From positions 62,001-126,000 of the forward strand of contig JAPOVD010000007.1 of assembly GCA_026708305.1 (NCBI GenBank): a stretch of DNA of 64,000 bases. Reading direction: 5' to 3'. The stretch is from Nitrososphaerota archaeon. Lineage in GTDB: Archaea; Thermoproteota; Nitrososphaeria; Nitrososphaerales; Nitrosopumilaceae. Made by a program: the position numbers and the translations under genes. Numbering within the stretch: position 1 is the first letter of the stretch; every line of letters starts with the position of its first letter. Shown piece by piece: positions 41,435-42,491 of this stretch. Under the pieces are notes generated by a model, which worked only from the letters and a program-made list of their open reading frames with translations, was not told the origin of the DNA and searched no databases.

Positions 41435-41608
41435 TCATCGATCTAGCTGGATTACTGAAAAAACAAATTGAATTACAAATCCAATTATTCCTATTGTTGA
41501 TATACCTAATAATACTAGCCTAAAGTGTTGCATATAATCATCTCTATCTGATTTTCTAGCAAGTTTTATTGTATTTATCATGTTCTTGATTGTATTTGTT
41601 AAACTCAT
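41435..41608 (-). CDS. secE: preprotein translocase subunit SecE (Sec61 gamma)
   Basis: A 57-residue tail-anchored membrane protein, the gamma subunit of the Sec channel whose large subunit SecY is encoded at 50.3 kb. The cytoplasmic amphipathic helix (NTIKLARKSDRDDYMQHFRLV) is followed by one transmembrane helix (LLGISTIGIIGFVIQFVFSVI). I chose the ATG at 41608 to give the normal short N terminus; an in-frame upstream start at 41647 would run into the divergent pseudogene's start region. It is the first gene of the secE-spt5-rpl11 transcript. Confidence 0.88.
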   Translation of the reverse strand: MSLTNTIKNMINTIKLARKSDRDDYMQHFRLVLLGISTIGIIGFVIQFVFSVIQLDR

Positions 41609-41645
41609 TGTTGAGATTAAATAGTATTTATTTATAATTTTATTC

Positions 41646-42400
41646 ATGGAATTAATTGTAGCATATAAACATGATGTTGCTGGTTATAAAATGGCAAAAT
41701 TTATTTCTCAAAACCTAACAATTACAAATGGTGTATATAAAGGAAAATTTTTTGATGTTATGATAATTGATTCTCCAACTATTTATGCCTGATTGGATAT
41801 CGAAATATGATTATGATAGTTATATTTTTTTATCAAAGCATACTGCAAAATTTAATATACTTTCATTGACATGTCATTCTACTGGTATTATTAAAACAGA
41901 TTCAATTAATCGTATTAAGCAAGCGTCTGTGCCACATCCACACCTGAAAAAATCATATATGCAATCACTATGGGATAATAAACACAAGATAAGTGATTTT
42001 CGAATCACGATAGAAACTACTCATCATTCTATCGTCTATATGTAAACCAACTTTGTTCATAGAGATTGGAACTACTGAAAAACAATGGAATGATTTAGAT
42101 TTATGTGAATTGATATCTAAAATTATTGTAAAAAATCTGCCAATGAAAAAACTTATCTTACTGTCATAGGTATAGAAGGAACACATTATCCACATAAATT
42201 CACAAATGAGATTCTTCATGGAAGATATACTTTTGGTACTATAATACCCAAACATTATATAGATTATTTAGACCAAAATTTATTGAATAATATATTAAAA
42301 AAGTTACATGGCTGATTCTATTATAATTGATAGTGATGGCTTAAAATTAGAAATTATATCTAAATTAAGTAACTTGGATATGAAAGTAATTGAAATCTAA
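41646..42400 (+). pseudogene. dtdA: broken D-aminoacyl-tRNA deacylase (DTD2/DtdA)
   Basis: Conceptual translation across three frames gives a nearly full DTD2 protein, the archaeal/plant enzyme that removes D-amino acids from tRNA. Pieces: 41646-41790 (start MELIVAYKHDVAGYKMAKF, stop TGA); about 41790-42030 (YIFLSKHTAKFNILSLTCHSTG, then RITIETTHHS); about 42035-42150 (KPTLFIEIGTTEKQWNDL); about 42140-42315 (VIGIEGTHYPHKFTNEIL, FGTIIPKHY); 42311-42400 (a GLKLEII C terminus, TAA). At least four frameshifts separate them, with internal stops at 41790, 42043, 42167 and 42313. Flanking genes are intact. It is divergent from secE. Confidence 0.85.
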
Positions 42401-42491
42401 ATTTGCTACGTTGTAATATTCTTCGATAACAGTGATATACTAAACGCATAATATTTTTGATTTGTCTATCTAGTTTTTACTTGTAGGGTGA

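Follow-up and report, generated by a model that had tools for sequence, protein, structure and literature searches.

DTD2, the D-aminoacyl-tRNA deacylase that strips D-amino acids from tRNA, is described as the chiral proofreader of the archaea, and as the sole known enzyme that clears and recycles D-aminoacyl-tRNAs modified by formaldehyde or methylglyoxal (PMC10942605). The kind of event described in this article, the loss of a stand-alone chiral proofreader, is already known. Bacterial dtd is absent from all Mollicutes except A. laidlawii, and in these reduced genomes of less than 1 Mb the loss of DTD1 is accompanied by that of editing functions of the aminoacyl-tRNA synthetases (PMC4014445). 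Among the Thermoproteota, two genera with genomes of 1.3-2.2 Mb, g82 of family f41 and g51 of family f23, have neither DTD2 nor DTD1, and some of their genomes consist of a single contig.

The locus under study may be set against each of these systems. It belongs to the family of the archaeal enzymes of known structure (1YQE of AF0625 and 2GFQ of PH0006) and is colinear with them over its whole length, but its frame is broken four times, its THHGP and GGTHYP motifs are damaged, and the entire genus carries Ile instead of Asn81 and Asn instead of Gly88, at sites invariant in 30 relatives. In contrast to the Mollicutes, the enzyme involved is the unrelated DTD2, the organism is an archaeon carrying amoA, the editing domains of AlaRS and ThrRS have been kept, and the loss has been caught as a pseudogene. 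It also differs from the situation in g82 and g51, where no DTD2 match is left, in that a readable remnant persists, within a genome of 0.84 Mb. What is noteworthy is that the loss recurred inside a single genus of ammonia-oxidizing archaea with very small genomes. We understand the locus, with considerable confidence, as a gene recently inactivated in an ammonia oxidizer with a strongly reduced, AT-rich genome, where selection for chiral proofreading would have been relaxed and DTD2 knocked out independently at least twice.

A remnant readable in three frames

The window that we analysed is a stretch of 64,000 nucleotides (G000:C5:62001-126000) from an assembly, G000, of 836,782 bp in nine contigs, 95.5% complete with 0.02% contamination and a GC content of about 29%. 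The remaining members of the family that were sampled have genomes of 1.1-3.2 Mb, all larger than this one (0.84 Mb) and its sisters (0.8 Mb). A heterotrophic lineage of marine Thaumarchaeota has a similar genome size (PMC7300363), but G000, a genome of Nitrosopumilaceae type, possesses amoA, and the PQQ_2 repeats of PQQ-dependent dehydrogenases were not found in any of the three genomes of the genus; the organism is therefore an ammonia oxidizer and not a member of that lineage. In the literature on sponge symbionts, the genomes of ammonia-oxidizing archaea are larger, or else small without a link to this genus.

The remnant occupies positions 41646..42401 of the window, on the + strand. A profile search matches it to PF04414 across the length of the domain, with E=5.3e-25 for one frame, through five in-frame stops, and a second piece of the locus gives its own match (E=3.9e-7). 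The DTD2 protein of G020, a genome of the same family, aligns with the locus over residues 5-255 (E=2e-42). The preliminary description had recovered a nearly complete DTD2 from the letters alone, and three-frame translation of 41646-42405 reproduces all its quoted fragments (ETTHHS, FIEIGTTEKQW, GIEGTHYP and FGTIIPKHY) in order, as well as the exact succession of frames, 0,1,2,1,2, and the stops at 41790 (TGA), 42043 (TAA), 42167 (TAG) and 42313 (TGA); the final in-frame stop ends at 42401. Its count of at least four frameshifts becomes exactly four (+1, -2, -1 and -2) when the intact gene of a sister species (L034:2890-3651, in G002) is used as the alignment reference for placing the indels.

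The reading thus begins in frame 0 with the N-terminus, MELIVAYKHDVAGYK...SPTIY (41646..41787, +), in a frame whose first stop is the TGA at 41790. An insertion of one nucleotide at 41788..41789 (+), outside any homopolymer, gives TATGCC where both sisters have TATGC, and shifts the reading into frame 1. This second segment, DWISKYDYDSYIFLSKH...ETTHH (41790..42027, +), closes at the TAA of 42043, and its open reading frame taken by itself still matches PF04414 (E=3.1e-14). A deletion of two nucleotides follows at 42027..42028 (+), again off homopolymers, which takes out the codon for the glycine in the invariant THHGP motif. It leads into a frame-2 segment containing TLFIEIGTTEKQWNDL (42028..42153, +), closed by the TAG of 42167. 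At 42153..42154 (+) one nucleotide is deleted beside six consecutive A, and frame 1 resumes with YLTVIGIEGTHYPHKF...FGTIIPKHY...NNIL (42154..42299, +), which carries the invariant Gly178 as Glu and closes at the TGA of 42313. Finally, two nucleotides are deleted inside an A-run (42297..42302, +), and the C-terminus, MADSIIIDSDG...MKVIEI followed by the stop, is read in frame 2 (42303..42401, +). Four indels and four stops leave no uninterrupted DTD2 frame. The damage exceeds what frameshifts alone would entail, since the first deletion removes the Gly codon of THHGP and the Pro that comes next is changed: compared with 30 relatives, invariant Gly128 and Pro129 are both gone, in addition to the change at Gly178. 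All three residues are retained in the intact gene of G002.

The neighbouring genes (L11, NusG, SecE-like, L19e, L32e, PEPCK and SOD) are open, as had been claimed. The place of the gene is conserved in close relatives: in both G000 and the sister G001 it lies between L10-L1-Lrp-L11-NusG-SecE-like on one side and L19e-L32e on the other, and G002 shows the same order from L10 up to DTD2, where its contig stops. Between DTD2 and the SecE-like gene, a short divergent stretch (41606..41645, no strand assigned) with the TATA-like TTTATAAT is nearly unchanged in a three-species alignment; it may have been conserved as the promoter of SecE or as part of the SecE N-terminus.

Sister species and the timing of the decay

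The preliminary description had proposed a comparison with sister genomes, and the two of the same genus, each about 0.8 Mb, give contrasting answers. At the same place, G002 (MEX2-MAG6, JAHRAP010000109.1) encodes an intact DTD2 of 253 residues (L034:2890-3651), which matches 1YQE (E=1e-26) and possesses the ETTHHGP, LFIEIGTTE and GGTHYP motifs. In G001 the gene is broken by two -1 shifts, of which the first falls at codon 8-9 and the second directly after THHG. Not a single shift is shared between G000 and G001 in the alignment; each gene is broken close to THHGP, but the lengths of the changes differ. A tree built from L1, L10, L11 and NusG groups G001 with the intact G002, so that two independent losses are the simplest reading, and the decay of the two genes is probably independent. 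The support for this grouping, 79, is moderate, and a first, non-coding hit may have arisen in a common ancestor and been shared.

That the loss is recent, as had been proposed because residues can still be read, is borne out by the way substitutions are distributed. Between G000 and G002, 80 of 490 sites differ at codon positions 1 and 2, and 108 of 245 at position 3 (p=2e-15). The pattern is not that of neutral substitution; the third-position bias remains, as expected when inactivation is recent, and we can therefore understand DTD2 as a gene that purifying selection maintained during most of the period after the two species diverged.

This same bias, together with the good conservation of the pieces, would fit a fragmented gene that is still active, whether its product is made by programmed frameshifting or its parts come together as a split enzyme, and the two long open pieces of G001, of 124 and 101 codons, could be thought to point in that direction. 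Such an arrangement is nevertheless hardly credible. It would require in G000 four shifts in mixed directions, in a gene where the Gly of the catalytic motif has been deleted, while the usual starts of the second piece in G001 fall past the conserved LFIEIGTTE motif. Furthermore, no point of fragmentation has the same frame change in both species, unlike what is expected of a split that has been selected. The genus, with one species that has kept DTD2 and two in which it is broken differently, constitutes a natural experiment that bears on the conditions under which cells need this safeguard.

Two residues set the genus apart irrespective of the frameshifts. At codons 81 and 88 of L034:2890-3651, sites where 30 relatives invariably have Asn and Gly, all three species, including that with the intact gene, have Ile and Asn respectively. 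From the sequences compared, the constraint on DTD2, or its specificity, may have changed or loosened in the genus ahead of the frameshifts.

Broken genes in the rest of the genome

How unusual four shifts in one gene are can be appreciated from a screen in which the proteins of G020, a genome of 1.23 Mb, were aligned with the whole of G000 by tblastn. Orthologs were found for 892 proteins (E<1e-20), spanning 723 kb, and 828 of them run in a single frame across at least 80% of their length. Many apparent stops came from stop-to-stop ORFs that extend past the N-terminus, from antisense ORFs or from rRNA-like cases (these last judged by look). They were left out of the list of broken genes, and after this filtering there remained DTD2, a HEAT-repeat protein and two genes with one lone shift each. 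The HEAT-repeat remnant, outside the window (G000:C1:81761-82087, L059), is clearly decayed, with at least six stops in its best frame. A GPN-loop GTPase (PF03029; G000:C9:84253-84968, L157 and L159) has one frameshift off homopolymers and is intact in G001; by its sequence this could be an error or a new pseudogene. A GalT/HIT-like protein (G000:C8:8001-9010, L045) is interrupted once, at a run of A10 (about C8 8600), possibly by homopolymer slippage or by error.

Two lone shifts per 723 kb make for a background that is only roughly estimated, from which the Poisson chance of finding four in 755 bp is about 1e-12, and the size of this gap settles that the disabling changes of DTD2 stand above the background despite the roughness of the estimate. 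The preliminary description held sequencing error to be a poor explanation, and we likewise consider it very unlikely that the organism has an intact gene into which sequencing or assembly introduced the four shifts. The indels were, to be sure, read from the assembly, two of the four fall within or adjoin runs of six A, and the lone frameshift at the A10 run indicates that homopolymer errors could occur in principle. Against this, beside the low background, the other two indels are off homopolymers, the loss of the THHGP glycine and of a further invariant Gly is not an effect of random indel error, and the separately assembled G001 is broken elsewhere in the same gene. With the assembly sequence as the material at hand, the locus may yet contain a population polymorphism or a local assembly error.

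Breadth of the loss and candidate replacements

The view that DTD2 is widely conserved in archaea stands in the main: a match was found in 57 of 61 sampled relatives and, across the phylum, in 373 of 393 near-complete genomes. It has to be tempered by the 20 without one, which are clustered (six are genomes of g82, for example, some of them single-contig), and a few genera have no DTD2 at all; the loss, though uncommon, has precedents. It would be tempting to link the loss to simple genome reduction. This link is not supported, since G050, of the same order, has an intact DTD2 at 0.8 Mb, and a small genome is thus not in itself a predictor of the loss.

The alternative first put forward, that D-aminoacyl-tRNA editing is dispensable or that another enzyme has replaced DTD2, had been left undivided. 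The search for a second dtd gene has since been extended to the entire 837-kb genome: the remnant is its single PF04414 locus, and DTD1 (PF02580) was not found in G000, G001, G002 or 20 tested genomes that lack DTD2. As G000 is 95.5% complete, a second DTD2 might lie in the missing part. AlaRS, editing domain included, is intact (a frame of 901 codons), and so is ThrRS with its archaeal N-terminal editing domain (628 codons), which implies that the loss of DTD2 was selective and did not belong to a general collapse of tRNA editing. An intact TatD-family protein is also present; this family contains the cyanobacterial DTD3.

It may therefore be asked whether another enzyme took over the removal of D-aminoacyl-tRNAs in the genus and made DTD2 redundant. 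TatD would be one candidate, and the editing domain of ThrRS, structurally related to DTD1 (PMC10954443), another. We regard such a takeover as improbable. TatD was found in all 14 control genomes, four of them archaea that also carry DTD2, and is therefore not a specific replacement; nor did DTD1 turn up in the three genomes of the genus or in the 20 tested without DTD2, in searches for known families, which a new family would escape. No recognisable replacement having been found, dispensability is favoured, and the separate breaks in G000 and G001 indicate that the safeguard can be lost without one.

In the reading that we prefer, recent inactivation under relaxed selection, the pressure to keep the proofreading of D-aminoacyl-tRNAs, and of their aldehyde adducts, would have weakened in the genus, perhaps because these molecules are rare in its niche or tolerated there, and DTD2 would then have been knocked out in at least two lineages independently. 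D-aminoacyl-tRNAs would be tolerated, kept scarce upstream, or cleared by weak side activities, without a dedicated deacylase. We suggest, tentatively, that this genus of ultra-small ammonia oxidizers offers natural knock-outs in which DTD2 was repeatedly lost without replacement, or else that it harbours an undescribed family of deacylases. It provides, in any event, close pairs in which exposure to D-amino acids and aldehydes may be compared and a hidden back-up enzyme sought. The genera g82 and g51, for their part, may possess a chiral proofreader yet to be described, or may live without any.
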